DNA from: a virus
Virus record (IMG/VR): IMGVR_UViG_3300030106_005509
Location: 1-64,000 of that record
Reading direction: 5' to 3' (one strand)
DNA: 64,000 nucleotides
The notes under the pieces are model-generated. The model did not search any database, was not told where the DNA came from, and worked only from the letters and a program-made list of their open reading frames with translations. Both the position numbers and the translations under genes were made by a program. Positions 33,560-51,236 of the stretch are shown piece after piece (position 1 is the stretch's first letter; each line of letters opens with the position of its first letter).

Positions 33560-36500
33560 ATGGCTAAACCGTTTGTATTAACAACACAACTACAGATACA
33601 GATACCAAACCTTAACCAAGTTGTCAGTCAGCTTAACAAGGGGTTAGGTAATGTAAATGTTCCTGTTAATATTAATATACCTAAAAATGCCAACACTCAG
33701 CTTACTAATTTAAACAAAAACGTCAAGAACGCTGGAGCCTCTGCTCGCGGTGCAGCAAAAAACTTTGACTCCATGAGAAACTCTCTTAGGGGTGCGCTTA
33801 CTTATATAGCTAAGTACGACGCCGCTAGAGAGATTTTCAATCTATTTGCACAAACACTTAGAGATGGTGTTTCTTCTGCAATAGCTTTTGAAAAAGAAAT
33901 GGTTAAGGTCAGTCAAGTTACTGGTCAAACCATGAAACAATTAAGGGGTTTGGAGCGAGAGATAACCAGAGTTTCTACAGGCTTTGGGGTCTCTTCAGGA
34001 TCTTTAATTAAAACCTCTAGGGTATTAGCTCAGACTGGTATGTCTGCTAGAGATGCTAGGATAGCTCTTGAAGCCCTCGCTAAAACAACTCTGGCCGCTA
34101 CGTTTGACGATATTACATCTACCACAGAAACCGCCATTGCTGCAATGAGGCAGTTTGGTATAGCCTCGACAGACTTAGAAAAGACGCTTGGTAAAATTAA
34201 CTCCTTAGCAGCTAACTTTGCTGTTGAGGCTGGTGATATCGGCGTAGCCATCAGGCGTGCTGGTGGTGCGTTCAAAGCTGCCGGTGGAAGTCTTGATGAA
34301 CTTAATGCTCTCTTCACCGCTGTTCGTTCTACCACTCGTGAAACAGCGGAAACTATTGCTACTGGTTTTAGAACTATCTTTACCAGAATACAAAGACCAA
34401 AAACTATACAGTTCTTAAAACAGTTAGGTATAGAACTGCAAAATGTAGAAGGTCAGTTCGTAGGACCGTTTGAGGCTGTAAGAAAATTAAATATAGCTCT
34501 TAAAAGTCTAGACCCCAAAGACGTTAGATACTCACAGATCATTGAACAGCTTGGTGGTTTCAGGCAGGTCTCTAAAGTTATACCACTTATTCAACAATTT
34601 GGTCAGGCACAGAAAGCCCTAAATGTATCTCAGCAAGGTGGTACTAGTCTTGCTAGAGACGCTGCAAAAGCACAACAGAGTCTTGCAGTCCAGTTGACAA
34701 AGGTCAAAGAAGAATACATGGCTCTGTTTAGAGAGATATTTGGCGGTCAAGGAATGCAAACCGTCATAAAGACCACGCTTAAACTAGCCTCCGCTTTCGC
34801 TAGAGTTGTAGATTCTCTTTCTCCTATAATACCTCTTATTGCAACTATAGGTGCTGCCAAGTTAGGTCAGTTTGCTCTCTTTGGAAGTCTTGGCAGAGGT
34901 AGAAAACAGGGAGGTAGAATAAATAGGTTTGCTACTGGTGGTATGGTTCCCGGAAAAGGAAATAGCGATAGCGTTCCTGCCATGCTTACTCCCGGAGAGT
35001 TTGTAATACGTAAAAGTTCTGTAAGAACAATTGGCGCCAACCGTTTGCAAAAGATGAACAGATACGGTAACGGCGGAACTGTAGAAAGAGGTCAAGTACA
35101 ACGAGTCGCCAACAGAAAAGCTTCTCTAAAAAATAAATATGATATTGGCGAAGGTGGTATTCACGATAAATACAGAGCCAAATTGACAATTAAAACTTTC
35201 GACCCCAATGATAAAGAGGTGGGTCGCAAAGCTATTGAAGCCGAAGCAAAAGAAGCAAAAGCATATGGTCAAAAAAGATATCAAGCCCTTCTTAAAACCA
35301 GTGGGGATGAAAAGAGGTCTGCGATAAGAGCTGGTGCTTTGATGCGGAAAAGATTTGGTCTTTCAGGATTCATAGGTAAAAGGACAAGTGGTCAATCTAA
35401 ATTTTTTACGTCTAAAACTCCAAGACAATCACAAGGTGTTACGAACAACCTCGTGGGAGGAATCCATGAAAGAAATGTAAGTGGATGGGCAAAGAAAAAT
35501 TACAAGAGCGCAAGAGTTGGTAAGCTTCCAGACGCAGACGGAATGGATTTTAGAGTTGGTAACAGCGGCGTTCTCATCGAAGCGAAGAGCCTAAAGAGAA
35601 AATTAAATAGAGACGAGATCATAGCAAAAGGTTTACTCGCTAAAGCCGTCAGTAAAAACTATCAAGACAAAGTTTCGCAAGATGTTAATTTAAAAGAACT
35701 TGTATATGCTGAAGCGCCAGCGAGCCTGAAAAAATCTGGGTTTACCAAGAGGAATAGAGGAGGAGGCATATCATCAACAGATACAGTTCCCGCACTCCTT
35801 ACTCCCGGCGAATTCGTAATCAATAGAAAGTCCGCAGCTAAGATTGGTTACGGCAACCTTAACAATGCAAATAGATTTGGTAAAACACCTAAAGGATTTG
35901 CTGCTGGTGGAATAGTAGGCGTACAGAAATTCAATAACGGTGGAGAAGCAAGAAGTCCCCGTCTTGGTTTAGGCGTTTTTGTTGCACTACAAACAATATT
36001 GCCACAGTTAGCAGAAGCTTTTAAATCAGCCGATGGAGAAGTTACCGATCTTTCTATGGGGCTTGACGCGGCAAGCCAAGGCTTGATGACATTTGCTACA
36101 TTGAGCTTTGCTACTGGTGATTTGCTAGAAGGTTTTGGTGGCAAAGTAAAGTTTGCTGCAACAGGCTTATTGGCTGTAGGGGCAGCTGCATTTGCTGCTT
36201 ATCAGTATGAAAAACAAAGAGGGATGGAGAGAGAGAAGCGTGCTGTTAAAAACCTTGAAGAAGGAGGTTTTCAATCTGAAACGCGAACAGCAGGTCTTAG
36301 GCGTCAATTCATAGACGCTAGGAGGCAACAAACTGAGGGTGCTGGCGGAGCTGCTGGTCGTGTAGCTGGAGCTGCTGGTGGCGCTTATGCTGGAATGAAA
36401 GCTGGAGCATTAATAGGAGGATTGACTCCAGCTGGCCCAGTTGGTGCTTTGGTTGGAGGTATACTTGGAGCTATAGGAGGAGGTATCGCTGGATATTTTG

Positions 36501-39500
36501 GTGGCGGTGCTATTGGAGAAGCAATAGGAAAATTAAACTTTGATGAAGCTGGAGCTATAAGAGAGTTTAATGAAAAAGTTAAGTCGTTAAAACTTGGCGT
36601 GTCGATAGACGGGTTAACAAACTCCTTAAAAGCTTTTTCTGAAGGAAGAGCTTCTATTGGCGCTATAGCCTCTACTGTTAGAAGCGGTATAAAAAGTCTA
36701 CAAAGAGGCTTCTTTGATGTTAGCACCGAAGAAGGTCTTGAGCGATTTAGAGGCCAACTACAAAAAACTTTACCAGCACTTTCCGAGTATATAAACAAAG
36801 CTGCATCTTCTGCAAAAAGCATGGCTGAGTTTGATGCGATCATAGGTGACGAGGCTTTAAATGCATTCTCGCAACTTAGCGGACAAAGCATTCCAGAGTT
36901 AAGAAGACAAATACAAGAAAATATAGCGCAAAGAAAGAAAAGCGCCGCTGCTCAAAAAGCAAACATAGCAGCAATTCAAGCATCAAACAAAGTCCTCTAC
37001 AGAGCAAGAGATGCTGGTACTGCATTTATGGAACTAGAAAGAAGACTTGTTTCCTTCGACAATGTAATGTCTGGTGTTGAAGCTTCTATAAACAACACCT
37101 TCTCTGGGCTTTCGATTGGCAAGATCGCTCCCAACTTTGATGACATAACTAACATATTTGATATGTCTGCCTTTACTGCTCAGGTAGATAGCCTATCAGG
37201 TGTACTTGGAGAGTCGGGACAATCTTTGGGTCAAGACCTCAAAAACTTTGCCGCCCTTAACTCTCTTCTTCCTAACATATTAACAGAAGCCGCTGGAGAA
37301 ATTGGAATTGGTGGCGCTAGAGCTTCTGAAATTATAGAGTCTAAATTAATGGCTGCTGATCCGGGAGGGATTATAGGCGCTGAGTTTAGAAGGGTTATTG
37401 CACAAAGAGTTCAGGCCATTGCCGAGATGGGTGAAGGTGGCGAAGGTAAGTTTGCTAATAGAATAAGAACAGATATTGAAGGTGTTGTAAGAGACCTCAC
37501 TAAAGGCATGTCTGAAACTGCTGAAGCTTTCCAAAAAGCTGCTCAGTTTATAGATAGTGCAAATCAAAGATTAGCTAAGGCGTACAACTTAAGAACTCAA
37601 CTTGAGTTAAAACAAGCTAGACAGCTTTATGACATTATAGGTCTTCAGGCTGAAAACGCTGAAAGAATGTCAAAGGCCAGACGCCAACCAGTCAATGCTG
37701 ATGCTGATTTAAATACGTTTAATAACCAACAAAACGCAATCTTAAGCGGAACTGCCATAAGCGGCTTGGGTTCAAGCGTAACTATAGTTTCAAACGAATT
37801 TAACAGGCTAAAGCAAAGAATAAAAGAAAGTGATGCTGCACTTGCAAATCTCGGAATTGCAGCAGATTCTAGTGGTGACCTGTTAGAAAACAATAGAGCT
37901 TTAATTGACGAAAACGCAGCTCTAAAATCGCAATTTGAAAAAACAAAACAAGTTCTTGAGAACTATGCTAACGTACAAGCTAGAGTAGCAAAAGTTCAAG
38001 AAGAAATTGCAAATGCTCAAGCCAGACAAGATAAAGCAAAAGCTGTAGCTGAAAATATAGCCTTTGGTACAGATCAAGAAAGACTAAAAATCTTTAGAAG
38101 CTTTAAAGCCGCAGAAATTGTGGCTTCTAGAGGTCTAGCAGCCTTACCTCAACAATTTAGAGGCGATGCTAGGAACATGTTATCACAGTTTGCTGATGCT
38201 CCAATATTTGGAGGGAAAACAGGTCAGCAGATACTAGACCGAGAAACCGCCAATCTGTTTAAGCATTTTCCACCTAATATAAGAAAAGCTTTAATGGCGG
38301 AGTTTGCAGACGCAAGAACAGATGAGCAGAAGTTCTTAGATAGGCTAGACAAGATTCAGCAAGACGCTGTAAAAGCTCAATTTGCTTTCCTTGAGGGTAT
38401 GCGTGGGGATAGCAAAGACCTAAAAGAAACCATAGCAAAGCTCAACGCAACTCTTGCAAATGACTTAAGGACTATATTCCAACAACAAGAAAATAGAGCT
38501 TTGGCAAGAGAGGTGTCTGAGAGCAAAGGCACGCTAGCTAACTCTAAAGCCCAGCTTGAAAAGTTAAAAGAAATAAGAAGTGCTGGAATACCCGTTCAAG
38601 ACCCGGCTGTTTTAAACGCTGTTAGAAGCAATGTAGCTGGCATAAAAGCTCTCAAAGACGCTAGACAAAATCTTGCTAGGTTTACGGGAGCGCAGGAATT
38701 TGGTATCAATCTTAGAAGCCAAGAGAATAGATTTACAGGCTTTGCTGCGGCTGATTCAGGCAGAGACAATCTAAAAGCCATAAAAGTGTTAGGCGCACAA
38801 CTTAGACAGCAGTTTGGCGCAGATGTTGGAAACCAATTACTACAAAAAGCAATTGATGCTCTTGCTCAATTTAGGGTAGAGAACCCAGAGGCGACAGGCG
38901 CAGAAATAGCTAAGGTCATCGGAGACACGATTAGTGGCGCTGGACTATCGGGTGCTAGTAGCGCACAAGGCATTATTGATGAAACAATGGCAAATCTTAA
39001 TGCTGCTGGTCTTGGGCCATATGTAGATACATTGGTTAACAATGTAGACATGATATCTACAGCCTTGGCAGCATTTCCAAGTGAAGCAAGTTGGTCTTCA
39101 TTAGAAGAGTCTATAATAAGAACCACAACCACTATAAACAACGCAAACGCTGCTATTGCTGCTAATAGTCCGGCGGGAGCTGTTAAGCTGGCGTCAGGTG
39201 GAAGTATATTTTCTCCACACGGAACAGACACCGTCCCTGCTATGTTAACACCCGGCGAATTTGTCGTTAACAGAAAAGCTGCTCAAAGAAACATGGGTGC
39301 GCTGTCGGCTCTTAATAGTGGAAAAACCCAATACTTAGCTGGTGGTGGTAAAGTTGGTGATTACTTTGGAACCCAAGCCGTCAGAGAGGATGGCAAAAAA
39401 GTAGAAGATGTATGGGGGTCTCACAATAAAGCTGCTGAGGCAATTGCGTCGTGGTATAAAAAACAGACTTCAAGCAGTGGTGCAGGTTCTGTATTTGACT

Positions 39501-42500
39501 CATCCAGACACTACATGGCTAAAAAGTACGCTGACCAAGACATGGCTGGAATAGCCAAAAATATACTCAAGTCAAAAGACAACGGCGATGGAATCCCTAT
39601 GAAAGACCCTCAGTATAGGGCGATGGGGGCTGGAGCTGAAAGAAAATCTTATAGTGGTAAGTATGCAAACTTACCAAAAGCCGTTAAGAATTATTTTCAA
39701 AGCGGATTCTTAGGCGTCAATGGATATAGCTATGGCCAAATGAGTGGTATAGAAGCCTTAGACTATTTTAAGTACGGCACTAGAATGTTCATGGATGGTG
39801 CTGGGAGTGGTGCAACTGGCAGGAATTACGGCGGTCAAGCTCTAGGTGAATATAAGACTATTGGTAATTTACAAAAAGCAGCAGGAAAAAGCAGAGAGAA
39901 TCAAGCAAGCAAACTATACGAAAAAGTAGTAGAGTGGGCTGAAGATAAAGCCTTTAGTAGAAAAACAATGAAGGTTGGTCTCTATAGATTCCCGCTTAAA
40001 AAATCAAAAATAGAAGCCTATGATGATCCAGACACTAATATAAGTGTTGATGGGTTCACGTACCCTAATATTCAACCGGGTGACATATTAGAGAACGATC
40101 CGCAGCTATACGATCTATTCACAGGCGGCAGTCCGGGAGGCAGAAAGCTAGGAGTTGTTTCTTCTGGCTGGGTTCCTGTTGGAGACGCATCTGAAGCTGG
40201 TGCTGGATTTACAGGAGGTCAGTTTTTCCCCGGTAATGAGCTTGAAGAAGTTTACAAGAACTTAGAAGGGTGGATATTTAACTCAGGCTCTCAATATAGC
40301 AAATTTGTTAAAGAGTATCTCACCGGAAATGCTGGAAGAACTGAACTAGCTGTTGTTCGACAGGCTTTTGGTGAGTTTGACAAAATCTGGGGTGGGCTAA
40401 AGCCTAAAAATTGGAAAACCCCAGCAGGATATAATTTAGCAAACGAACCTAGAGCTAACTTTAGTTATATCAAAGGTCTTGTTGAACGTAGACTTTCAAC
40501 AACAGAAAAACAGCTTGCTGACAGTTTTCCATTTAATCCCATGGATATAGATACTTGGGGTTCAGCAATAACTAGCAACACAAGACCTGTCGCTGCGCTT
40601 CAAGAACATTCTCAAAATAGAAGTGATCTATATCAGAAGATGAAAGACTTCTATGCGCAGTTTAAGTTTAAAAATGCACAAGACCCAACGCTTGCATTTG
40701 GTAAAGCTTTTGAAATTGTTCAAGACGATCTTAAAACTGGAGTTAAGGGATACGACGCTAATAATTTTATAAGATTAGCCAACAAAAATGTAGCAGGTCA
40801 ACAAGACGAAAAACAAAGACGCGAAGAAAAGCTAGAGTCCGTCGCAACCGCTATGAAAAACGTGAAAGGTCTCCCTACTGGACTTGGGGCGTTATCAGAA
40901 CACATAGCACAATCCATTAAAGGATTCAAAGCAGCAGGCAACTTCACTAAAATTCCTATGTACGCTAAAAGATCGTCAGCATCTTTGAGAGGTGTTAGAG
41001 ACTTCTGGCAGGCTAAGGATTGGGGCCAAGGAGAGACAAAAGCTTTATATCCTTGGTTAAGCGCTTTGGCTACTGAATTAAGCAGATGGGTAAGCGGCGG
41101 TCTTGTTACAGGAGCTGGAGCTGATAAAAAGGGCGCGTTTATAAACCTAAACGACGCCGAGGTTTTCCGTCAATTAGCAAGAATACAAGACGCTAGAAAT
41201 CAAGGTAAGAATATAGAAGAAGGCGTTGAGGTATTAAAGAAAAACCAGCTGGGAGAAATAATCCAAAGCTTTGAAGGTCCTAGCTTAATGGGTCGTATAG
41301 CGAGGATAGCCAGAAATAAACCTAATGCTTGGTATAACGTAGGTTTTGGTGATGAGTTTCCTTACTATGGAACTTTTGGTTTCGACTCTGTATCAGAAGC
41401 TGTAGGCAAACTTCAAGAAGAAGTAAAGAGAAGTTTTGAAAATACAATACTCATATACAATGAGCAATTTAAAGCAGGTCAAAGACCATTCCAAGCGGCT
41501 AATAAAAATCCTCTACTAATGGCTACGGGTGGTAAAGTTCCCCAACGTTTAGCTTCTGGTGGCGGTGTCTTCGCGTCACGAGGAACCGATACAGTTCCGG
41601 CGATGCTTACACCGGGTGAGTTTGTTGTTAATAAAGATGCGGCCTCTAAAAACAAAGGAGCTTTACAAGCTATTAATAGCGGCCAAACACAATACCTTGC
41701 CGGTGGAGGTGAAGTGCAAGCATGGAAGATGAGAGGTTTTGAATCGACTGGAGGGGTTGGTAATAAAATACTTGCAAGAAACTGGCGGGATACAGCTGCA
41801 AAATACTATCCAGATAAAGAGTTGCCAATGTTATCAACTCCAGCAAGTATAAAATATTCTGGGCCAGACAGAAACCGTGCCGCCATGTCGATGGGCCACC
41901 TCATGCGTCTTGAAGAGATAGCTGGATGGGACATACTTAAATTTCGCGAATATAGAGATAAAATACTTAATTTAAAACTTGCAGACCTTGGGGTTGATCC
42001 TTATGAAATATATCCAAAAGCGCAATCAGGAAGTATTGATCATGAATACGAAGGACAGTCACAAAAACGAGATTTACCAGTTATTTCCAAAACGGGAGAA
42101 GTAAGGCATGTAAATGCTTTAAGAGGTCAGGCGGGACAAAAGCTATTTGGGCATCTGACTAGTGATCCTGTAGCTTATCTTGCGAACTTTAAAAGAGATG
42201 ACTTTTACGAGTATGGAGCAACTGGTGGATATACCGTTAGGGATGCTAACAGATACAGTAGTTTTGATTTAAGAGACAAAGCAAATCCCGGAGGAAAATA
42301 TCGTTTGGTAGGACCTCCTAAAGGTAAGCTACCATCAATTGGAAACATATTTCAGGGTATGCGTGCAAAAGATCAAAAGGCGAGTGGCGATGCTGCTGCG
42401 CTTGCAGATAAAGAGCTAATCGCAATGCAACAGCTAGTTGCAGCTAGAGGTAGCTTCTACGGAGGCGACAGATTTGGTGATATAGAGACCAAAGCCTTTG

Positions 42501-45500
42501 CGTATATGAATAGGGACATGGATGGTGGAGAGTTTGTAGATGTACTTTCCGAAAAAGCTTTATCCAGCATACTTGCTAAAAGCGATATATCGCCTGAAAA
42601 CAAAGAGATTCTAGGTAGAAAATGGGCGAATGTTCACACAAGATTTAAGCGCCAGACTAAGCATGTCATAAGGGGAACAGGGATGGTAGATCCCGAAAAC
42701 CCCGCTTTGACAAAATACGGAGGAGGCGCATCAAGTTTCGAGAGCAAGCTAACTCAATCCTACGCAAAGCTACGTCAGCTAGCGCAAGAGAATTCGGTAA
42801 GCGAAGCTCACCGGGTCAAACTTACGTATGGAGGGATGACTCCAGAACGTATGCGTGGCGGCTTAGAAGGTGACGAAAAGGCTATTATTCCTTTAAATGA
42901 TCCAAACATACTCGATATTATCGAATCGCAAGCAGGGTCTCACTGGAGAAACAACAGCCTGCTTCATATGACACAGCTGAAAAACGATTTGGAAAAAAGA
43001 GTAGCTGGCGGCTCTCTTGGTCCTGAAGACCTGTCGGGTGCGCAAGCGCGATTAAAACAATACGAAGAGTCGATGATATGGGCTAGGTATCTTGAAACGA
43101 TTAGGATGCAGCCCGGCCAATATGGTAAATACATACTTAGAGACATAGAACAACTTTCTGAAACAAGAGCTGGAGGTTTAGACAAACAAACCTTTAACCA
43201 AATGCAAGTGCAGAAAGAGCGTCAGGCAAGAGGTAGAAGTCTTGAACTGACAGCTAAGCATTCAGGACTTTCAGGACTGGTTGATTACTTAGGCTATGCC
43301 TTTAGTCCTTTTGAGCAATTTGAAGATCAAATGCTTAAAAGCAAAGTTGCTGAAATGAGGGATCAAGGATATTCAGAATCACAGATCGCCAGTTTTGTGG
43401 GCGAGGTGAAAAAACATAACTCAATCGCTACCGCCATGACAGAAAGTGTAGCGGCTAATCCGGTGACTAAAGCTCTCGGTAAAGTTGGCATCAGTATGGA
43501 GCAAGTGCTTGGGTCTGGATTGCAAGCACTAAAAGGTTTCTACCATCTATCAGCGGGTGAAGAAAGAGCAGCAGCAATAGAGTTTGGAGCTGCGGCAGTT
43601 AGTTTTGATGAAGGTCTTAACGCTCTTGAAGCTTTGCCCGATTGGAACAAACAGCATGTAAGCAAGGTTGAAGAAAGATGGAAGGCCGAACTTGGGTTAA
43701 GCGATAAAGAGGTTGGAAATAGATCACGCGCTCTTATGATGGCTGATATAGCATCTATGTTCGTTGTGCCTCCGGGACTGCTTGCAAAAGCTGTAACGGC
43801 GCCGATAAAGCTTGGGAGGAAATTGACACCAACAGTAGTAAGAGCAGCTATTGCTACACAAAGAACCGCCAAGAAAACTCTGTTCGGAGCTGGAGAAACA
43901 GGTGCGGCTTTATCTAGAGGTGGAAAATCTGGCGCAGGTTTGCCTAAATATATTGGTGACGATTTTGCAACCGCAGGGAAGCTAACACCGAATCAAATCG
44001 CAAAAGCGGAAGTAGTCACCGATTTACGTGGGCCTGTAAGACCAAAGTCGGGTGTGCAGCATAGCGCTAATAATCCAATTAGACAAAATGCCATTGCTAA
44101 TTATAACAGGGCAAATCCCGAATCAATGGTAAGTAAATTTGATGAGCTTCCAGCATGGGCTAAGCGAGACGCTGTGAATGCGGAGACCGCAGCACGAAAA
44201 CTTGGAGAAATGCGAGATAGTCTTGGCACTTTCTTCAAAAAAATGACAGACACAGACAAATCAGTCGTAAAAGGAGGTGTAACAGCTGACGCTCTTAGTG
44301 TAAATAAAAGAACAGGTGTAGCAACACCATACAAGAAAACTCCTTTCCAAGATGCGGATGCTATGTCGGGGGTAGTGTCAAAAGCTGATGCTGATGCAGC
44401 TATAACAAAAACTCTTAAAGACGCAGAAACTACCGGAATGATTGATGATATCTCTGCGGGTATAGACGCTGATAGAGCAATAGTTAGAAAAACAATTGAT
44501 GATGCTATTGTGCGTCCTAAAATTAGTCAGCAAGAAATTGTACGAGCCAACATGGAGCAAACTAGGATACCTCGTCATGGAGGAATAGTTGAAGGACCTG
44601 CTGGTCCAGTTGCGTTAGACCCTAGTCAAGCCGGTTCTCGCTTTGCGACAACAAAAGCTGATGTTATCTCTGTTGGAGGTGTTGGAGACGATGTTACTAG
44701 AGGTGCTACAAAAACTACAGGTCCACACTCACGGTTCGATGCTCACCTACAGTCTCAGAAAAAATTAGCAGACATAAGGTCGCAACTTAAAGATCCAAAC
44801 TTAACCCCTGAACGAATGGCAGCGCTTAAGCGTCTTGAGTCTCGTTATAGTGGCTCTATCCAAGCAAGAAGTACAAAAGCCACCGATATCTCGGGTCCCA
44901 CAGGTCTACAAGGCACAGGATTAAGTACTCGTCGTAATGTTATTGATAGGGCAGTGGCGAGAGAAAAAGTTGTCAATAACATTGTAGAATCAGCTACGGA
45001 CAACACGATTCCAAGAGCTACCCAGACCAAATTCACTCCTGCATCCACCGCCGCAGACCCTGCGACTACAGCAAAAACAAAAACTTTTGCTGGAAAGATG
45101 AATGAAAAAGGCCGAGGGTCAATACGTAAAGAAGATTTGGATACTGTTGAGATGAGGACTAAAACAAGTCCTGATGATGCGTATATAGATCAGGCGGCTA
45201 TGCAGCAACAAGCTATTAATATACAAAAACAGTTACAACAATTTGAGGCAACTCAAGTAGCATCGACTCCAACAACTGCTGGGGGTAGAAGTGCCAAACG
45301 AGCCGCAAATCAACAGGCAAGTGATAATGCGGCAGCACTGGCAGCAAAGAGGAAGGAGCTTTATGAAGCAGCAGGCTTTGGTTCTGAAAAAGAATATAGA
45401 AAAGCTCTCGAAAAAGCCCAAGCTAATTCAATGTTTGATACATCTAAAGGAAACGTAGATGTAAGAACAGCAGATGTACAGGCAAGTGATGAAGCAATCG

Positions 45501-46801
45501 CTCTTAATCGTGACAGGAAAAGACTTTTCAACATAAGAGAGAGACTCCAAGACAGAAGAAGTTTAAGTGGTGAAGAATTACAAAGATTGGAGCAACTGGA
45601 GTCAACTTATGATAAACAAGTTAAGTACGCGAAAGGTTTACTTGAAGGAAAAATAGCACGCGGTGAACGTCTTACTTACACGCGTAAGGCAAAACAAGCT
45701 GCGGAAGCTGAAGAAATGATAACGATTTACCGTGGTCTTGGAGATGATGGTGGCGAGGCCCTTTCCAATTGGTGGACTACAGACTTAGAAAAGGCAATGA
45801 GTTTCACAGGGAGAGAATCTGGGTCTTTGGTTTCTGTCAAAATTCCAAAATCAGCTGTGAAAAAATTTGATGTTAAGAGTCTTAACGAAAGCCTTCAACT
45901 GCAAAAACAAATGGATGCTGGTGGAATTTCTCAAGATGCATTTGATGCTTTGGGGGTTTCTAAGTCTAGGTTGGAAGAGATTGAAAGAATCGCGATTGCT
46001 GCTAAGGGCCAGAAGGAGACAGATTTTGGTCTAGAAATGTTCTTCTCACAAGATTTTCTTAATCAGTTGAAAGGCTCGAAAATGAAGAGGCTTGACGTTG
46101 CTGATTTGGGTCTGGGTCCGACAGCGAAGAGGCCAAAAATGCCGAAAGGTGCGCAAGGATCTATGCCTTCCCCTGAACAGATGAAAGAGTTTACGAAGCT
46201 CAACCGTAAGGTCACTGCGGACCATTTTAAACGTAAAGAAACAATATTAGATGCGGCGAAAGATTTATTTAAGACTCAGGGATATGCTAAGGGTGGCATT
46301 GTATCTTACTTTAATTCTGGTGGACCGGCTATGGGAACAGATACGATTCCTGCAATGCTCACACCCGGAGAGTTTGTTGTAAGAAAAGCCGCTGTAGATT
46401 CTGTAGGTGTAGAAACACTTAGAGCTATAAATAATATGGGCAAAGGCTCAACAAGTTCTAAGCCTAAGAAAAGAGCTGGAGTTAACTACTTAGCTAATGG
46501 TGGTCAAGGTGAAGCCTCTGGGTTGAGAATGCCAACTCTAGATGTAAAAGACTTTAATACAGCTATAAGTAAATTTGATAGCTCTGTTGATAGACTTGAA
46601 AAAATATTCGGCAACGGCATACAAATGACGCACAATTTTGAGGACATGAATGTTATTGTAACAGTAAACGGAAACTTTGGTGATGATGACGGTGAATTAA
46701 GTAACGGAATGCAGAGAAGAATTAACAGAGAAGTTAGAAAGGGTATAAATGACTTTATAGACAGGTCATTCCCAGATATACCTAGAATGGACATAGCTTA
46801 A
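33560..46801 (+). CDS. Giant tape measure protein with embedded cargo-like domains
   Basis: The 4,413-residue protein determines tail length and is likely ejected ahead of the DNA. Residues about 80-400 form a TP901/PhageMin_Tail domain (AFEKEMVKVSQVTGQ, GVAIRRAGGAFKAAGG, TTRETAETIATGFRTIFTRI). Five motif copies of TDTVPAMLTPGEFV type, with their Asp at residues 470, 741, 1890, 2677 and 4261, divide the chain. Segment 490-735 carries a PD-(D/E)XK-like set (E637, D663, E674-x-K676). Segment 820-990 has hydrophobic helices and a Gly-zipper (GALIGGLTPAGPVGALVGGI) suited to membrane insertion. Residues 990-1870 are coiled coil. Residues 1900-2660 and 2710-4040 are large unassigned globular or helical parts. 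Residues 4053-4165 resemble an ADP-ribosyltransferase (YRG 4057-4059, WWTTD 4071-4075, E4159). It is preceded by an attenuator. At 4,413 residues it is among the long tape measures. Confidence 0.9.
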   Translation: MAKPFVLTTQLQIQIPNLNQVVSQLNKGLGNVNVPVNINIPKNANTQLTNLNKNVKNAGASARGAAKNFDSMRNSLRGALTYIAKYDAAREIFNLFAQTLRDGVSSAIAFEKEMVKVSQVTGQTMKQLRGLEREITRVSTGFGVSSGSLIKTSRVLAQTGMSARDARIALEALAKTTLAATFDDITSTTETAIAAMRQFGIASTDLEKTLGKINSLAANFAVEAGDIGVAIRRAGGAFKAAGGSLDELNALFTAVRSTTRETAETIATGFRTIFTRIQRPKTIQFLKQLGIELQNVEGQFVGPFEAVRKLNIALKSLDPKDVRYSQIIEQLGGFRQVSKVIPLIQQFGQAQKALNVSQQGGTSLARDAAKAQQSLAVQLTKVKEEYMALFREIFGGQGMQTVIKTTLKLASAFARVVDSLSPIIPLIATIGAAKLGQFALFGSLGRGRKQGGRINRFATGGMVPGKGNSDSVPAMLTPGEFVIRKSSVRTIGANRLQKMNRYGNGGTVERGQVQRVANRKASLKNKYDIGEGGIHDKYRAKLTIKTFDPNDKEVGRKAIEAEAKEAKAYGQKRYQALLKTSGDEKRSAIRAGALMRKRFGLSGFIGKRTSGQSKFFTSKTPRQSQGVTNNLVGGIHERNVSGWAKKNYKSARVGKLPDADGMDFRVGNSGVLIEAKSLKRKLNRDEIIAKGLLAKAVSKNYQDKVSQDVNLKELVYAEAPASLKKSGFTKRNRGGGISSTDTVPALLTPGEFVINRKSAAKIGYGNLNNANRFGKTPKGFAAGGIVGVQKFNNGGEARSPRLGLGVFVALQTILPQLAEAFKSADGEVTDLSMGLDAASQGLMTFATLSFATGDLLEGFGGKVKFAATGLLAVGAAAFAAYQYEKQRGMEREKRAVKNLEEGGFQSETRTAGLRRQFIDARRQQTEGAGGAAGRVAGAAGGAYAGMKAGALIGGLTPAGPVGALVGGILGAIGGGIAGYFGGGAIGEAIGKLNFDEAGAIREFNEKVKSLKLGVSIDGLTNSLKAFSEGRASIGAIASTVRSGIKSLQRGFFDVSTEEGLERFRGQLQKTLPALSEYINKAASSAKSMAEFDAIIGDEALNAFSQLSGQSIPELRRQIQENIAQRKKSAAAQKANIAAIQASNKVLYRARDAGTAFMELERRLVSFDNVMSGVEASINNTFSGLSIGKIAPNFDDITNIFDMSAFTAQVDSLSGVLGESGQSLGQDLKNFAALNSLLPNILTEAAGEIGIGGARASEIIESKLMAADPGGIIGAEFRRVIAQRVQAIAEMGEGGEGKFANRIRTDIEGVVRDLTKGMSETAEAFQKAAQFIDSANQRLAKAYNLRTQLELKQARQLYDIIGLQAENAERMSKARRQPVNADADLNTFNNQQNAILSGTAISGLGSSVTIVSNEFNRLKQRIKESDAALANLGIAADSSGDLLENNRALIDENAALKSQFEKTKQVLENYANVQARVAKVQEEIANAQARQDKAKAVAENIAFGTDQERLKIFRSFKAAEIVASRGLAALPQQFRGDARNMLSQFADAPIFGGKTGQQILDRETANLFKHFPPNIRKALMAEFADARTDEQKFLDRLDKIQQDAVKAQFAFLEGMRGDSKDLKETIAKLNATLANDLRTIFQQQENRALAREVSESKGTLANSKAQLEKLKEIRSAGIPVQDPAVLNAVRSNVAGIKALKDARQNLARFTGAQEFGINLRSQENRFTGFAAADSGRDNLKAIKVLGAQLRQQFGADVGNQLLQKAIDALAQFRVENPEATGAEIAKVIGDTISGAGLSGASSAQGIIDETMANLNAAGLGPYVDTLVNNVDMISTALAAFPSEASWSSLEESIIRTTTTINNANAAIAANSPAGAVKLASGGSIFSPHGTDTVPAMLTPGEFVVNRKAAQRNMGALSALNSGKTQYLAGGGKVGDYFGTQAVREDGKKVEDVWGSHNKAAEAIASWYKKQTSSSGAGSVFDSSRHYMAKKYADQDMAGIAKNILKSKDNGDGIPMKDPQYRAMGAGAERKSYSGKYANLPKAVKNYFQSGFLGVNGYSYGQMSGIEALDYFKYGTRMFMDGAGSGATGRNYGGQALGEYKTIGNLQKAAGKSRENQASKLYEKVVEWAEDKAFSRKTMKVGLYRFPLKKSKIEAYDDPDTNISVDGFTYPNIQPGDILENDPQLYDLFTGGSPGGRKLGVVSSGWVPVGDASEAGAGFTGGQFFPGNELEEVYKNLEGWIFNSGSQYSKFVKEYLTGNAGRTELAVVRQAFGEFDKIWGGLKPKNWKTPAGYNLANEPRANFSYIKGLVERRLSTTEKQLADSFPFNPMDIDTWGSAITSNTRPVAALQEHSQNRSDLYQKMKDFYAQFKFKNAQDPTLAFGKAFEIVQDDLKTGVKGYDANNFIRLANKNVAGQQDEKQRREEKLESVATAMKNVKGLPTGLGALSEHIAQSIKGFKAAGNFTKIPMYAKRSSASLRGVRDFWQAKDWGQGETKALYPWLSALATELSRWVSGGLVTGAGADKKGAFINLNDAEVFRQLARIQDARNQGKNIEEGVEVLKKNQLGEIIQSFEGPSLMGRIARIARNKPNAWYNVGFGDEFPYYGTFGFDSVSEAVGKLQEEVKRSFENTILIYNEQFKAGQRPFQAANKNPLLMATGGKVPQRLASGGGVFASRGTDTVPAMLTPGEFVVNKDAASKNKGALQAINSGQTQYLAGGGEVQAWKMRGFESTGGVGNKILARNWRDTAAKYYPDKELPMLSTPASIKYSGPDRNRAAMSMGHLMRLEEIAGWDILKFREYRDKILNLKLADLGVDPYEIYPKAQSGSIDHEYEGQSQKRDLPVISKTGEVRHVNALRGQAGQKLFGHLTSDPVAYLANFKRDDFYEYGATGGYTVRDANRYSSFDLRDKANPGGKYRLVGPPKGKLPSIGNIFQGMRAKDQKASGDAAALADKELIAMQQLVAARGSFYGGDRFGDIETKAFAYMNRDMDGGEFVDVLSEKALSSILAKSDISPENKEILGRKWANVHTRFKRQTKHVIRGTGMVDPENPALTKYGGGASSFESKLTQSYAKLRQLAQENSVSEAHRVKLTYGGMTPERMRGGLEGDEKAIIPLNDPNILDIIESQAGSHWRNNSLLHMTQLKNDLEKRVAGGSLGPEDLSGAQARLKQYEESMIWARYLETIRMQPGQYGKYILRDIEQLSETRAGGLDKQTFNQMQVQKERQARGRSLELTAKHSGLSGLVDYLGYAFSPFEQFEDQMLKSKVAEMRDQGYSESQIASFVGEVKKHNSIATAMTESVAANPVTKALGKVGISMEQVLGSGLQALKGFYHLSAGEERAAAIEFGAAAVSFDEGLNALEALPDWNKQHVSKVEERWKAELGLSDKEVGNRSRALMMADIASMFVVPPGLLAKAVTAPIKLGRKLTPTVVRAAIATQRTAKKTLFGAGETGAALSRGGKSGAGLPKYIGDDFATAGKLTPNQIAKAEVVTDLRGPVRPKSGVQHSANNPIRQNAIANYNRANPESMVSKFDELPAWAKRDAVNAETAARKLGEMRDSLGTFFKKMTDTDKSVVKGGVTADALSVNKRTGVATPYKKTPFQDADAMSGVVSKADADAAITKTLKDAETTGMIDDISAGIDADRAIVRKTIDDAIVRPKISQQEIVRANMEQTRIPRHGGIVEGPAGPVALDPSQAGSRFATTKADVISVGGVGDDVTRGATKTTGPHSRFDAHLQSQKKLADIRSQLKDPNLTPERMAALKRLESRYSGSIQARSTKATDISGPTGLQGTGLSTRRNVIDRAVAREKVVNNIVESATDNTIPRATQTKFTPASTAADPATTAKTKTFAGKMNEKGRGSIRKEDLDTVEMRTKTSPDDAYIDQAAMQQQAINIQKQLQQFEATQVASTPTTAGGRSAKRAANQQASDNAAALAAKRKELYEAAGFGSEKEYRKALEKAQANSMFDTSKGNVDVRTADVQASDEAIALNRDRKRLFNIRERLQDRRSLSGEELQRLEQLESTYDKQVKYAKGLLEGKIARGERLTYTRKAKQAAEAEEMITIYRGLGDDGGEALSNWWTTDLEKAMSFTGRESGSLVSVKIPKSAVKKFDVKSLNESLQLQKQMDAGGISQDAFDALGVSKSRLEEIERIAIAAKGQKETDFGLEMFFSQDFLNQLKGSKMKRLDVADLGLGPTAKRPKMPKGAQGSMPSPEQMKEFTKLNRKVTADHFKRKETILDAAKDLFKTQGYAKGGIVSYFNSGGPAMGTDTIPAMLTPGEFVVRKAAVDSVGVETLRAINNMGKGSTSSKPKKRAGVNYLANGGQGEASGLRMPTLDVKDFNTAISKFDSSVDRLEKIFGNGIQMTHNFEDMNVIVTVNGNFGDDDGELSNGMQRRINREVRKGINDFIDRSFPDIPRMDIA
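34967..35014 (+). repeat. TPGEFV motif copy 1 in the tape measure
   Basis: The segment specifies D470-SVPAMLTPGEFVIRK. It follows a glycine-rich GGRINRFATGGMVPGKG linker. This motif is known in many tape measure proteins; here it marks the N-terminal border of the nuclease-like segment. Confidence 0.85.
35780..35830 (+). repeat. TPGEFV motif copy 2 in the tape measure
   Basis: The segment specifies D741-TVPALLTPGEFVINRKS after a GGGISST linker and is followed by KGFAAGGIVG. It marks the C-terminal border of the nuclease-like segment. Confidence 0.85.
39227..39277 (+). repeat. TPGEFV motif copy 3 in the tape measure
   Basis: The segment specifies D1890-TVPAMLTPGEFVVNRKA and is followed by MGALSALNSGKTQYLAGGGK. 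It begins the first large unassigned segment. Confidence 0.85.
41588..41638 (+). repeat. TPGEFV motif copy 4 in the tape measure
   Basis: The segment specifies D2677-TVPAMLTPGEFVVNKDA and is followed by KGALQAINSGQTQYLAGGGE, closely matching copy 3. It begins the second large unassigned segment. Confidence 0.85.
46340..46390 (+). repeat. TPGEFV motif copy 5 in the tape measure
   Basis: The segment specifies D4261-TIPAMLTPGEFVVRKAA and follows the ADP-ribosyltransferase-like region. It is the last motif before the C-terminal tail. Confidence 0.85.
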
Positions 46802-46812
46802 AGGAATAACCA

Positions 46813-49290
46813 ATGGCTGATTCTTCAAAAGATCTCGGCTTAGTCATGTTTGGAAGCGTTGCTCGCATGACGGAGAGGGAGATATTTCCAAGCGGTGTCA
46901 ATAGGGAATTTGGATACTGGCGAGGAAGTGAAAACAAAAAGATCGTAAATAAGTTTAATAAGCTTTATATGCCTCTTGAGGGTAGCGGTCTGTATTCTGG
47001 TTCTCCTGTTGTAAAAGCTAAAAAAGATACTGCAAGCAATGCTAGTGGATTAAGTTGTGACCCAGAAGGTTGCGCTTGGATGTTTGATGGTTCTGATTGG
47101 TCTTTATATGAAGACCTATGTGGGTTAAGACCTACAGCATACGATGCTACTTGTGGATGCACAGAACCTCCTGAAGGCGGTGGTTTTATGGGCGACATAA
47201 AATCGACTGCATGTGTTGGCGGTGTTGGTGGAGGTGGAGGTTCAACCGCTGATGGAGACTCTGCTGGTGACGGATTTGCTGTATGGCAAAGAGCCGGAGA
47301 CCTCGTAGATATAATTGGTCAAGAGGCTATACAAGAAAGATGTCTATTCCTTTCCCAACGAGCTAATGTAAATCTTGGAAGCGGCGTTAGTCTAGCAAAC
47401 GCAAAAGGGTTTACTGTCTATTCAAAAATACTACCTAGTGGTGATATCAGTGATACAATCATCCTAGCTCAACACAAAGAAAACCCAGCAAAATTCGTTC
47501 TTGGTTGTGACTTTGATGGTAGGTTCTATATTCGTGCCGATGGAAATATAGAAGGTGCAAACACTGCTTTTACTGCTAAGTCAGCAAAGAGTTATCAAGA
47601 ATACAAATATCCTGCGCATGTAGTTGGTGTTTTTGCTTCTGGAGACTCAAAACTAAAGATATATGTAAATGGTATTAATGAGGGCGAGTCTCAGGTATTT
47701 AAAAGAGATCTAAGCGGTGCTGACAATACAGACATTATTTTAGGTAAAAGAGGTTTTGCTATATCTGAACGTGGTTACACGGGATGGGTAGATGAAGTAG
47801 GTATTAGTAGCAAGAGCTTTAGTGACGAAGAAGTTAGTCAGTTTTATAATAGCACTTTTGGCGTTACAGATATTATTAAAAGTTACTCTCCTCCTACAGG
47901 AGCTGCTTTTGACGCTGGATTATTTGCTGCTGACTTTGATGCTAAAGATAAAGACTTCATAGAATTTACCGTAGCTTCTGGTAATAGCGAAGGCGCTCTT
48001 GGTGGAGCTTTTGACCCAAATCTTTGGGGTAATTCTAATTACGCTGTATCTTCTGTGTTAAGTATTAGGATTGAAGAAGCGCCGCCAAACTTCCATCAGT
48101 TAGATACCGTAGCTGTTGATGTGTGGGTTGAAAATGCCACAAACCATCCAAGCGGAGCAAAATTCACAGCAGCGCTAGTGCATAAAGATGCAGAAAAACC
48201 TATCAATACAAGCAGGAGTCTCAATTGGTACGCTAGTGGCGTAATGATTCCTTCTGGAGATAGACAAAAAATAACTTTTGAAGCGCCACTAAATGGGTCG
48301 GATACTTTCTTCCCAGACGGCGCTATCCCTTTCAAAGATGATTTTGGAAAACATAATTTAGACCTTACAGTATTCTATCCAGAGTACGACCATCCATACG
48401 ATGCTGAATTCAAAATATATTCTACCAAAATAAGATATACGTCGTTTGACAGGTATCTTGGATTCAACAACATTGACGGATCTATATTAAATGGAGCGTC
48501 TTTAGGATTAAATAACGGTCAAGACCAACCCCTGTTTGTGGATGGGGGTTTGAAGGCTAAGGCTTCTGGTGATTTGAGACTTACTGTGTTTGCAGACAAA
48601 GCAGCACAGAGTATGCCTTTGGTTTTAAACCAAGATGCTAAAACTAGCATGGGCGATACGGGTCATGGGTATCTAACTGCAAATGGCGCGGTCTTGATAA
48701 ACCAGAATATGAACCTTAGTCTTCTTGGCGCTATTGAAAGAATGACTAAGACGTTGTTTATTGGTGGTAAAGTATTCACCGTAAACAACAACTTAAATTT
48801 GGAAACTAAGGGTGGTGTTAATATATATCCATATATACAAAAAACACTTCCCATCTTAATTGCTACAGAGCCGGGTTCTGGAATTTTTGAAGCTAGCATG
48901 AATCTAGCTCTCCCCAAAGTCAATCCGGCTAAGTTAAATGTTGACTTCCCTCAGTTTATTGAGGGTGAGCGACCAGTTGCAACAATGCCTCTGTATGTAA
49001 AAACAGCAGAGAGTGGAGTTACAACATTCCCGATATCATTATTAGGACCTTCTGTATATAAGAAGAATGAATCTATGAATCTTTATATGCAACCTGATAG
49101 TCCACAATTTTTAGCCAGAGGAAAGAGGCTTTCTGGGTCTCCCACAGTTAAGCAAAATAGTAATTTTGATTTAGTAACAGTAGGTAAAGCTACTTCAAGT
49201 GGAACTATGGATTTAGTGATAACATCCGTAAAGGCTAGTGGTAATTGGAATACAACTTTATACAGTCAAGGTTTTAGAACTACAGATTAG
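46813..49290 (+). CDS. Tail protein with LamG/concanavalin-like domain
   Basis: The 825-residue protein contains a LamG-type lectin sandwich at about 185-345 (FTVYSKILPSGDISDTIILA, then LKIYVNGINEG, ADNTDIILGKRG, GWVDEVGISSKSFSDEEVSQ). This fold binds sugars. The N-terminal 150 residues hold a Cys cluster (LSCDPEGCAWMFDGSDWSLY, later CGCTEPPEGGG). The C-terminal 260 residues consist of short strand repeats (MNLSLLG, LNLETKG, MPLYVK, MNLYMQP, MDLVITS) resembling those of the protein at 21699. It directly follows the tape measure, the place of distal tail proteins. A carbohydrate-binding distal tail component is the best reading. Confidence 0.68.
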   Translation: MADSSKDLGLVMFGSVARMTEREIFPSGVNREFGYWRGSENKKIVNKFNKLYMPLEGSGLYSGSPVVKAKKDTASNASGLSCDPEGCAWMFDGSDWSLYEDLCGLRPTAYDATCGCTEPPEGGGFMGDIKSTACVGGVGGGGGSTADGDSAGDGFAVWQRAGDLVDIIGQEAIQERCLFLSQRANVNLGSGVSLANAKGFTVYSKILPSGDISDTIILAQHKENPAKFVLGCDFDGRFYIRADGNIEGANTAFTAKSAKSYQEYKYPAHVVGVFASGDSKLKIYVNGINEGESQVFKRDLSGADNTDIILGKRGFAISERGYTGWVDEVGISSKSFSDEEVSQFYNSTFGVTDIIKSYSPPTGAAFDAGLFAADFDAKDKDFIEFTVASGNSEGALGGAFDPNLWGNSNYAVSSVLSIRIEEAPPNFHQLDTVAVDVWVENATNHPSGAKFTAALVHKDAEKPINTSRSLNWYASGVMIPSGDRQKITFEAPLNGSDTFFPDGAIPFKDDFGKHNLDLTVFYPEYDHPYDAEFKIYSTKIRYTSFDRYLGFNNIDGSILNGASLGLNNGQDQPLFVDGGLKAKASGDLRLTVFADKAAQSMPLVLNQDAKTSMGDTGHGYLTANGAVLINQNMNLSLLGAIERMTKTLFIGGKVFTVNNNLNLETKGGVNIYPYIQKTLPILIATEPGSGIFEASMNLALPKVNPAKLNVDFPQFIEGERPVATMPLYVKTAESGVTTFPISLLGPSVYKKNESMNLYMQPDSPQFLARGKRLSGSPTVKQNSNFDLVTVGKATSSGTMDLVITSVKASGNWNTTLYSQGFRTTD

Positions 49291-49298
49291 GTGACAAT

Positions 49299-51236
49299 AT
49301 GCCAGTTTATTTTAGAGGTGACGATCCAGACCAAGATTGTTATTTGACACCAGCTCCTTTTGTAAGTATAGACAAAAATTACGAAAGAGCTGGCGATGGT
49401 CAAATACTTGGAGTTAGATATGTAATAACTTTAGAAGGCAGTATGGTTGCTGATAGAGGATCTCCGTCTACTCATGAAGACGCAACTAATGGATGGTTGA
49501 CAGACAGTGCGGACAAGATCATTAACGATCATGTACATGCCCACTCTTATACTGACATTATGAAAAAGCAGCAGCTTATGAGAAAGCTGTTTTCTAAACG
49601 TAATGAAGGTGGAATTTTATATATATCCGCTCCGTTTACCGGAGGCGCAACAATAAGTTGTCATGTAGAAATAATTGGTGTTAGTTTTCCGCAGCAGCCA
49701 CCGGGACAAGTTCTTGTTCAACCATACAGTATAACATTTGAAACCTCTGCTCTTAGCGGTGCTGGTATAACTGACCCAGACGACATGAGTATCAAACATC
49801 AGCTTGTGTCTGCTGCTTCTGAGAATTGGGATATACAGGAAGATACTGGCAGGAATTTTATAAACCATAAAGATGACGGAGGGTTCAAAAACACATATGG
49901 AACTTACACCGTGACCCATACTATTAGCGCTACCGGCAGAAGAAAATTTAGCAGTGATAATAGAGGAATGCAACCAGAAGCGTTTGGTAGAGACGCTGGA
50001 CGTAGTTCGGAAGACGGATTTTTTAACAGGTTAGATACTGATGGTCAAGCTTGGGAACAGGCTAGAGATTTTTGCCGTAGAAAGTTGATGCATGGTGTTC
50101 ATATTCACAATCCTTCCAGTAGTGATGGAATAGACCTTACAAAATATGGGGCAAATATACCGTGGGAGTTAGATGATGAACACGACCTTACGGGAGCCAC
50201 GATAGATGGTTACTATGCCTTTAACTACACAAAGACGGAATCCATTGGAGAGATGGATGGGACTTTTAGTGTAACCGAGACGTTTGATTTACTTCCACAA
50301 AACACCATAGCTATAGAGACTATGGAGGTACAAAAAGGTAGAGATGCAGGACATGGTAAGTCAACGGTAACAATAACCGGAACTATTGAAGGTGTGAACC
50401 TAGCACCTGTAATAGACGGAAAAATAAAAACAGCAAACTCTACTCATAATTTAGAATCAGCAAAAGCTAATAATAATGGATTTGATAAATTTACCAACGC
50501 AAAGACTAGGCTAGGCCAGATAAAACCAATACTTTACCTTCATGCTAGAGAGTTTACTGGCGATACAGGAATATTGCCAACACCAGTTTCAAGCAACATA
50601 TCAAGAAATCCATCAGCTGGAATTATAAATTACAGTTATACCTTTGAGAATAGAAAATATTATATACCATTTTGCCGGGCAGAAACCGTTACATTAAATG
50701 ACACTTATCCGGGACATATAATTGCTCAACATCAAGTCATAGGACGAAAGACTGGACCTGTACTGCAAGATATAGGCACTCAAGGGCCTTGGAAAAGAAA
50801 CATGTCTATAACTTGCGTTGTCGATGTTGATAGTCAAAAATTTTGCGTAGACTCTGGCGGCGATAGAACTTTGCATGAAAATAAAACAGACTGTGAGGCA
50901 ATATCAGGAAACACTTGGGCTACAAATCCAAACTACATAGCAACTGATTATAGTGATGCAAATACTAAAAAACCAAGCATGGTTGATACGGCGGTAGTAG
51001 GCACGTTAAGTCAAAGAACCGCTATAAGAAATGTAGTAAATACATTTAAACCTGACAGTGCTTCTGCAAGAGCTATTTTTGCAGACACAGCACCTACAGA
51101 AACTTGGGACCCTCAAAGTGGATCTTGGAGTTATAGTATTGGATGGACTTATGAGTTAGCAGAAAGTTACATCTGCAATGAAGATGTAGATAATATAACT
51201 GGTGGTGACAACAATTATCCGGGAACACCTAAGTAG
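49299..51236 (+). CDS. Tail-tip/baseplate structural protein
   Basis: The 645-residue protein is beta-rich and mixed, starting VYFRGDDPDQDCYLTPAPFV. A domain around 40-160 (LGVRYVITLEGSMVAD, later PGQVLVQPYSITFETSALSG) could be the distal-tail sandwich. A region near 510-560 carries a C-x-x-x-G motif (ENKTDCEAISGNTW) shared with downstream genes. It lies between the LamG protein and the large hub-like gene. I see no catalytic motif. A distal tail (Dit-like) or hub-adaptor role is inferred from order. Confidence 0.55.
   Translation: MPVYFRGDDPDQDCYLTPAPFVSIDKNYERAGDGQILGVRYVITLEGSMVADRGSPSTHEDATNGWLTDSADKIINDHVHAHSYTDIMKKQQLMRKLFSKRNEGGILYISAPFTGGATISCHVEIIGVSFPQQPPGQVLVQPYSITFETSALSGAGITDPDDMSIKHQLVSAASENWDIQEDTGRNFINHKDDGGFKNTYGTYTVTHTISATGRRKFSSDNRGMQPEAFGRDAGRSSEDGFFNRLDTDGQAWEQARDFCRRKLMHGVHIHNPSSSDGIDLTKYGANIPWELDDEHDLTGATIDGYYAFNYTKTESIGEMDGTFSVTETFDLLPQNTIAIETMEVQKGRDAGHGKSTVTITGTIEGVNLAPVIDGKIKTANSTHNLESAKANNNGFDKFTNAKTRLGQIKPILYLHAREFTGDTGILPTPVSSNISRNPSAGIINYSYTFENRKYYIPFCRAETVTLNDTYPGHIIAQHQVIGRKTGPVLQDIGTQGPWKRNMSITCVVDVDSQKFCVDSGGDRTLHENKTDCEAISGNTWATNPNYIATDYSDANTKKPSMVDTAVVGTLSQRTAIRNVVNTFKPDSASARAIFADTAPTETWDPQSGSWSYSIGWTYELAESYICNEDVDNITGGDNNYPGTPK

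Follow-up and report, generated by a model that had tools for sequence, protein, structure and literature searches.

We describe a tape measure protein (TMP) that appears to carry an enzyme-like domain in one of several repeat-bounded cassettes. The 64,000-nt stretch analysed here, called the window, comprises positions 1 to 64,000 of the IMG/VR virus record IMGVR_UViG_3300030106_005509 (136,411 bases), and its plus-strand ORF 33560-46801 is a single open frame of 4413 aa. The product is a TP901-type TMP with the TIGR01760/PF10145 core: TIGR01760 matches aa 98-433 at E 2.5e-33 in the NCBIfam scan, PF10145 is matched at E 7.7e-26 in the Pfam scan, the PHROG scan leads to tape measure families, and YomI of SPbeta, annotated as TMP or transglycosylase, is a relative in the core (24% identity, E 1e-10). 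Towards the end of the protein, aa 4053-4182 are predicted to form an ADP-ribosyltransferase (ART)-like fold, which in our judgement is likely. The protein is best read as a modular TMP with cassettes for enzymes, in this case an ART-like one; the slots and what varies in them are well covered by the sampling, and the modular TMP is a more general result than the ART itself.

The original prediction had placed an ART-like domain of the R-S-E type at 45716-46060, near the TMP C-terminus. The motif order was borne out: residues 4053-4167 contain MITIYRG with R4058, WWTTD from 4071, SVKIP from 4092 and, in the segment GQKETDFGLEMFF that begins at residue 4150, E4159, which gives the R-S-E succession of YRG, WWTTD (T4073/T4074), strand and late Glu. 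The regular expression [YH]RG-x4-18-W[WF][ST][ST]Dxxx-A, composed once the motif was already known, matched the TMP once and none of 20,000 whole-protein shuffles. It had no match in the six-frame segments of at least 60 aa (4921 segments, 786,144 residues) of the related TMP loci (core search, 6 loci; profile search, best 80 of 420; 85 loci analysed). As to position, the domain does lie near the end, where it closes the last inter-repeat cassette (repeats at aa 2683 and 4267), but it is not the C-terminus itself, as the fifth repeat and a stretch at aa 4291-4413 lie beyond it.

Library scans with the domain were silent (see below), and IMG/VR was therefore scanned with a degenerate DNA pattern for the motif pair, YRG plus W[WF][ST][ST]DxxxA, of which the late Glu formed no part. 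A first scan gave 26 stretches with the motif in frame in 14. The open segment around the motif has 751-3510 aa in 13 of these and 175 aa in the remaining one, L108, and the late Glu is present in all but L108. Expansion with alignment A3 yielded 28 loci, many from the same contigs, confirmation by tblastn with the whole domain partly selecting for the Glu, and a second pattern scan gave 29 stretches. Pooled, these scans comprise 33 distinct sequences, and in 26 of them a regular expression finds the Glu; among the remaining seven it was seen by eye in L157 and L169 and was not assignable in L108 and L152, and L158, L163 and L258 were set aside as apparently unrelated pattern matches. Pattern matches in genome contigs (at least 119 stretches) were also rejected, the in-frame ones being judged chance by eye.

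The resulting unnamed YRG/WWTTD family has the rough consensus ITLYRGE..GxWWTTDxxKAxKYG.VTEVTLP...GHGGxDEFVFP and shares with the window the motif pair, the V-x-V strand that comes next, the late Glu and the location in a very large phage protein. It differs in the span from Tyr to Glu (49-59 aa in 25 family ORFs against 102 aa, with a helical insert, in the window) and in its carriers: the window carrier is a TMP, and the LTPGEF repeat described below occurs in 0 of the 25 family ORFs checked. R4058 is invariant in the 24 rows of alignment A5, but this Arg belonged to the search pattern. Two of five carrier ORFs scanned matched a DarB-like antirestriction PHROG, beyond the ART-like part. Gp22 of Escherichia phage phiKT (NC_019520), annotated as an internal virion protein with an endolysin domain, was weakly similar to the domain of L101 (tblastn E 0.05) and has HRG where the window has YRG; HRG likewise replaces YRG in two IMG/VR records of the A3 expansion (E 4e-7, a value relative to the candidates only). 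From the PDB the A3 profile retrieved nothing but plasminogen kringles (E 0.8 or worse), and a Pfam scan of 12 A3 members gave nothing sensible.

A family hidden Markov model (HMM) built without the window has its best domain in the window TMP at aa 4047-4102 (22.1 bits, E 4.7e-7), the next best of 86 TMPs reaching 2.8 bits per domain; this fit is partly circular because the motif picked the family. The best bridge between family and window is L169, which by eye has ISEEGFDAL/ISQDAFDAL and EEFFS/EMFFS in common with it (BLASTP E 0.78), and whose Glu falls in the column of the family Glu in one alignment and in that of E4159 in another. Searches with L169 found nothing in phages and plasmids by tblastn, and only its own contig in the viral scan.

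Structure prediction by AlphaFold2 (AF2) was useless on the single sequence, with a predicted local distance difference test (pLDDT) score of 38.9. With alignment A6, which has 22 rows (the window, L169 and 20 family rows that we chose to trim before the Glu motif), and with no template, pLDDT rose to 71.8 and the predicted template modelling score was 0.54. The model has strands at 4053-4060 (YRG, with R4058 inside the strand), 4071-4073 (WWT), 4089-4096 (LVSVKIPK) and 4159-4161 (E4159-F4161), and within WWTTD (4071-4075) the strand at 4071-4073 is followed by a helix at 4076-4081. In a Foldseek search of the PDB the first three rows are Tpt1 of A. pernix (E 0.52 to 1.5), as which we take 1wfx, and PARP12 stands eighth. 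A second look at 189 Foldseek chains with VIA-align (VIA-align 2) gave 42 rows, with the best at Z 5.2 and a root-mean-square deviation of 3.3 over 72 residues. Tpt1/KptA or PARP16 occupies each of its top nine rows, by title in six of them and by our assumption in three (1wfx, 9lda and 9ld3); over the whole list 17 rows are Tpt1, KptA or PARP by title, and 20 if these three entries are included. The same list holds TreX, TreTu, RhsP2, MbcT and 6kyf, which we presume to be ART-like. One superfamily thus fills the top of the VIA-align list, though scores this low could reflect a common arrangement. A fold search of BFVD gave weak matches, of which an uncharacterised protein of a phage was the strongest (E 8.4e-3).

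Several results weigh against an ART. No Pfam, NCBIfam or PHROG profile names the domain, no PDB sequence identifies it (a single phmmer match to ComGC, E 0.036, was unconvincing), and no curated ART profile matches it in the Pfam, NCBIfam and PF18760 scans; PF18760 (ART-PolyVal) found nothing in the virus record at E 10, and strand 1 of the domain has Arg instead of His. By tblastn the domain found nothing at E 1 in 50,697 phage records, and a scan of viral contigs with the domain itself gave nothing usable. Neither the 85 loci of related TMPs nor six first records yielded a relative of the domain, although 35 of the 85 TMP ORFs run past the end of their locus. Behind WWTTDxxxA the similarity to the family profile is not significant: of the sequences scored for comparison, 185 of 610 shuffles and 2050 of 5489 tiles from other TMPs did as well as its -2.4 bits. 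The placement of the Glu varies, as the alignments disagree: MAFFT places the family Glu away from E4159, and of 20 settings tried only 3 brought E4159 into line with the Glu of a family row, a single row each time. In the model, the Glu end is informed by L169 only, because the family rows were trimmed before it, and the block 4151-4160 has a mean pLDDT of 47 (below 50 at 4151-4157, just before E4159), so E4159 is only a candidate catalytic Glu. On the fold side, the best Foldseek match has E 0.52, none reaches 0.001 and most of the 50 rows are unrelated, and a Z below 8 can reflect a merely common arrangement.

The ART identity claimed by the original prediction therefore stands in part. It had named profile searches with no ART match as what would refute it; at the level of sequence, curated profiles included, there is indeed no match, but at the level of fold ART enzymes come first in the ranking, and the R-S-E order and the phage family with the same motif pair agree with them. 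For a domain that is both active and delivered by the tail we see an even chance, and we regard a tape measure with an ART as a good hypothesis rather than a demonstrated delivery route.

The ART-like domain occupies the last of several slots into which the TMP is partitioned by a direct repeat of 55 nt, present five times, that encodes the motif LTPGEFV (Table 1); the copies are 69-80% identical to the reference copy. The best-scoring relative among the best 80 of 420, L010 (65% in the core), is 2861 aa long, with four motifs, and lacks cassette B2. The difference in length between the window TMP and L010 (1552 aa) is close to the distance between repeats 4 and 5 (1584 aa), and the residues after repeat 4 resemble those after repeat 3, a pattern that would fit the gain of a second cassette, B2, at one and the same boundary. 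Measured from stop to stop, 46 complete-looking distinct relatives have a median of 2479 aa and a maximum of 3527 aa, and the window TMP is longer than any of them; L087, cut by the end of its locus, has at least 3808 aa. The motif occurs three times in 19 of these relatives, twice in 16, four times in eight, and zero, one and five times in one each.

The content of the slots is variable. Once 35 flanking residues had been cut, B1 matched none of 12 other slot-B cassettes, and the 13 cassettes gave weak matches only (best L006/L007, E 0.00034, and L076/L087, E 0.0015); a slot-B grouping of WIN_3 and WIN_4 at E 1e-4 vanished with the flanks. Pieces of B2 covering aa 2691-4200 had no match at E 0.01 in the 85 related loci. 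The repeat region itself finds matches in the TMPs of other phages and, under different annotations, in marine cyanophage proteins, the phages concerned being S-SM2, S-SCSM1, Bellamy, P-TIM68 and Nodularia, Rhodococcus and Clavibacter phages; a motif of the LTPGEF type is thus widespread.

Slot A was compared across 65 first cassettes, from which L007, L014, L061 and L077 (at least 991 aa) were dropped and identical ones merged, leaving 57 with the window. The expression G..[FYH]E ... D ... [DE]xK, composed after the sequences had been viewed, matches 37 of the 57 distinct cassettes, a few perhaps by accident (for example L006 and L036), whereas 200 shuffles gave 0.3 matches on average and never more than 2. 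Nine cassettes outside these matches look related by eye (L004, L011, L015, L021, L033, L056, L067, L072 and L081), and the window version, GGIHER / GMDF / IEAK, is retained in L004 and L026. Slot-A profiles found no PD-(D/E)XK match in Pfam or the PDB. An hhalign link between A9 and A7 (probability 93, E 2.7e-7) was discarded as an artefact, A7 having held the window row and the L026 row; against a slot-A profile free of both rows, A9 gave a probability of 0.3 and E 0.22. In four of the 57 cassettes (L017, L019, L030 and L060) a motif DGD ... R..G.DA.E replaces the PD-(D/E)XK-like one, and we read these cassettes as SNase-like; their SNase matches in Pfam lie below the cut-off (E 0.037 and 0.051), and a PDB profile search of the set gave nothing useful. 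The motifs thus suggest a putative nuclease in slot A, PD-(D/E)XK-like or SNase-like. If both assignments hold, two unrelated nucleases would share one slot, which would speak for nuclease action as the selected trait. The window TMP combines in one ORF an ART-like domain and a PD-(D/E)XK-like motif, neither backed by a curated profile.

Other enzyme-like stretches were noticed by eye in related TMPs. Cassettes of L053 and L087 (both in slot A) and of L047 have a HAD-phosphatase-like stretch, with the motif FDFDDTL ... TARPGD ... FLDDD in L053 and L087. An HExxH zincin-like motif (LLGHEFAHA ... EEGFAHLFE) lies behind the first repeat in the L008 ORF segment 6037-14805, aa 601-877; no metallopeptidase is among the Pfam matches of that stretch.

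Table 1. Features of the tape measure protein and of related cassettes (window coordinates, except where a locus is named).
Feature	Position	Strand	Basis or match
Tape measure protein, 4413 aa, one ORF	33560..46801	+	TIGR01760, PF10145, PHROG
TP901-type TMP core, aa 98-433	33851..34858	+	TIGR01760; core alignment A1
Repeat 1 (VPAMLTPGEFVIRK), slot A start	34961..35015	+	direct repeat family D1
PD-(D/E)XK-like motif core, slot A (GGIHER ... GMDF ... IEAK)	35456..35587	+	motif, no profile support
Repeat 2 (VPALLTPGEFVINR)	35774..35828	+	direct repeat family D1
TMP body, repeats 2 to 3, alignable with 7 relatives	35829..39220	+	best L010, E 2.3e-163
Repeat 3 (DTVPAMLTPGEFVVNR), cassette B1 start	39221..39275	+	direct repeat family D1
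Cassette B1	39276..41581	+	matches in relatives only at motif-flanking start
Repeat 4 (DTVPAMLTPGEFVVNK), cassette B2 start	41582..41636	+	direct repeat family D1
Cassette B2, ART-like domain at end	41637..46333	+	search of related loci
Predicted ART-like domain, aa 4053-4182	45716..46105	+	family alignments, AF2 model, VIA-align
R4058 codon, YRG motif, strand 1	45731..45733	+	sequence and model
T4073-T4074 codons, WWTTD motif	45776..45781	+	sequence and model
E4159 codon, candidate catalytic Glu, placement uncertain	46034..46036	+	alignments and model
Repeat 5 (DTIPAMLTPGEFVVRK), cassette B2 end	46334..46388	+	direct repeat family D1
C-terminal stretch, aa 4291-4413	46430..46798	+	L010, L014, L015, L021, L022 match, E 0.01 or better
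SNase-like motif	L017 11399-11782, L019 11429-11881, L030 11345-11800, L060 4444-4866		motif

Around the TMP gene, the neighbours at 28963-29973, 31110-32132, 46813-49287 and 49299-51233 have no PHROG match at E 0.001. At 1725-2273 the window encodes a phage sigma-70 region 2 protein (E 4.7e-7), which perhaps redirects host RNA polymerase. The 85 of 113 ORFs scanned in the window and in the rest of the record (L293-L296) include GDP-mannose dehydratase/epimerase-like and glycosyltransferase genes, as well as DNA polymerase III alpha, DnaB, PhoH and ribonucleotide reductase; ARAGORN found no tRNA genes in the window or in L293-L296.

How might such a protein work? We tentatively propose, at a little over one chance in three, that the LTPGEF-bounded TMP is a cargo carrier in a large group of tailed viruses known from uncultivated-virus contigs, with a nuclease slot and a freely swapped slot, here filled by an ART, and that the enzymes travel in the tail lumen and pass with the genome into the envelope or cytoplasm of the host. 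For the window TMP itself, our best explanation, to which the even chance above applies, is as follows. A small ART-superfamily domain of the R-S-E type would have come from a phage family of very large proteins, some of them DarB-like or virion-internal, and would have been captured as an in-frame TMP cassette between LTPGEF repeats. The TMP is located in the tail lumen of the particle. At genome ejection it would exit alongside the DNA as far as the inner membrane, which would make the ART one of the earliest components of the phage to arrive at or in the cytoplasm. With NAD+ as its substrate it would there modify some macromolecule of the host, close to where the DNA enters or as the takeover begins; candidate targets are RNA polymerase, a translation factor or a defence protein. 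The sequence, the motifs, the family, the cassette boundaries and a low-scoring predicted ART-like fold are what the analysis showed, whereas catalysis, packaging, translocation and target are what we infer.

An ART that works in the producing cell instead, in a late cytoplasmic pool of TMP or with its cassette removed before the tail is completed, seems unlikely to us. It would fit with L010, whose lack of the ART slot means that a related tail is built without it, and with the length of the window TMP, which would imply an unusually long tail if nothing were removed; against it, the presence of the family in DarB-like proteins and, weakly, in an internal virion protein points to packaging. 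Slightly less probable again is an ART fold no longer catalytic and retained as a spacer or as an NAD-binding or protein-binding module. The high divergence, the lack of a homologue in related TMPs, the missing signal behind the motif and the uncertain Glu all agree with such a module, but R, the TT pair and Glu are all retained, and in the right order, which speaks for an enzyme. That there is no ART at all, the YRG/WWTTD motif having arisen by chance in TMP spacer sequence, we regard as improbable: the silence of the sequence libraries and the low structure scores are what it would predict, yet the motif pair never arose in the shuffles and ART folds head the structure list even though AF2 used no template.

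A TMP with an enzyme cassette can be set beside known systems. TMPs with cell-wall enzymes, such as YomI of SPbeta, act on the cell wall during entry. The window TMP resembles these in containing an enzyme, if the prediction holds, but differs in the place of action, since an ART would require NAD+ and thus, presumably, the cytoplasm. During injection the lambda TMP was labelled by TurboID fused to the inner-membrane protein ManZ (excerpts of PMC13190303), which could give a domain of the TMP early access to the cytoplasmic face.

ARTs of polyvalent proteins (Tox-ART-HYD2 clade; ART-PolyVal, PF18760) lie, as in the window, within large multidomain proteins, which are thought to be injected with the DNA, but their active site is H-Y-D, against R-T-E here (excerpts of PMC5512222). 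T4 Alt and the MuF-fused Alt/VIP2 ARTs are virion-borne and have an R-S-E active site (excerpts of PMC5512222 and PMC9503650); they are head-packaged or form fusions with head proteins, as in the VIP2 ART fused to the head protein MuF (excerpt of PMC9206674), and the window domain matched none of them in the library scans. According to a published survey, about 44% of the phage ARTs recovered have contexts that suggest head packaging (excerpt of PMC9503650). The enzymes of the TMP may be likened, with the same tentativeness as the cargo-carrier reading as a whole, to the head-packaged polyvalent effectors, as their tail-borne counterpart.

The term 'tape measure' occurs nowhere in the main text of PMC9503650 or PMC5512222, and the excerpts of PMC7824862, PMC10684548, PMC9206674 and PMC12487901 describe no ART in a TMP. 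In the open-access library searched, no paper combines 'ADP-ribosyltransferase domain' with 'tape measure protein', and it is within these searches of that library that the combination is unreported; none there links an LTPGE motif to a tape measure or pairs 'endonuclease fold' with 'tape measure protein', whereas 'nuclease domain', 'tape measure' and 'phage' together do find a match. On TMP mosaicism, a large study saw sequence signals and did not confirm genuine recent cases (excerpt of PMC10684548).

The LTPGEF cassette layout is a candidate case of such mosaicism, and its boundaries provide a simple rule by which further cassettes may be located. If true, a TMP-borne ART would take a tail route into the host, as opposed to the head route of many phage ARTs, and an enzyme delivered by the TMP could act before phage genes are expressed.

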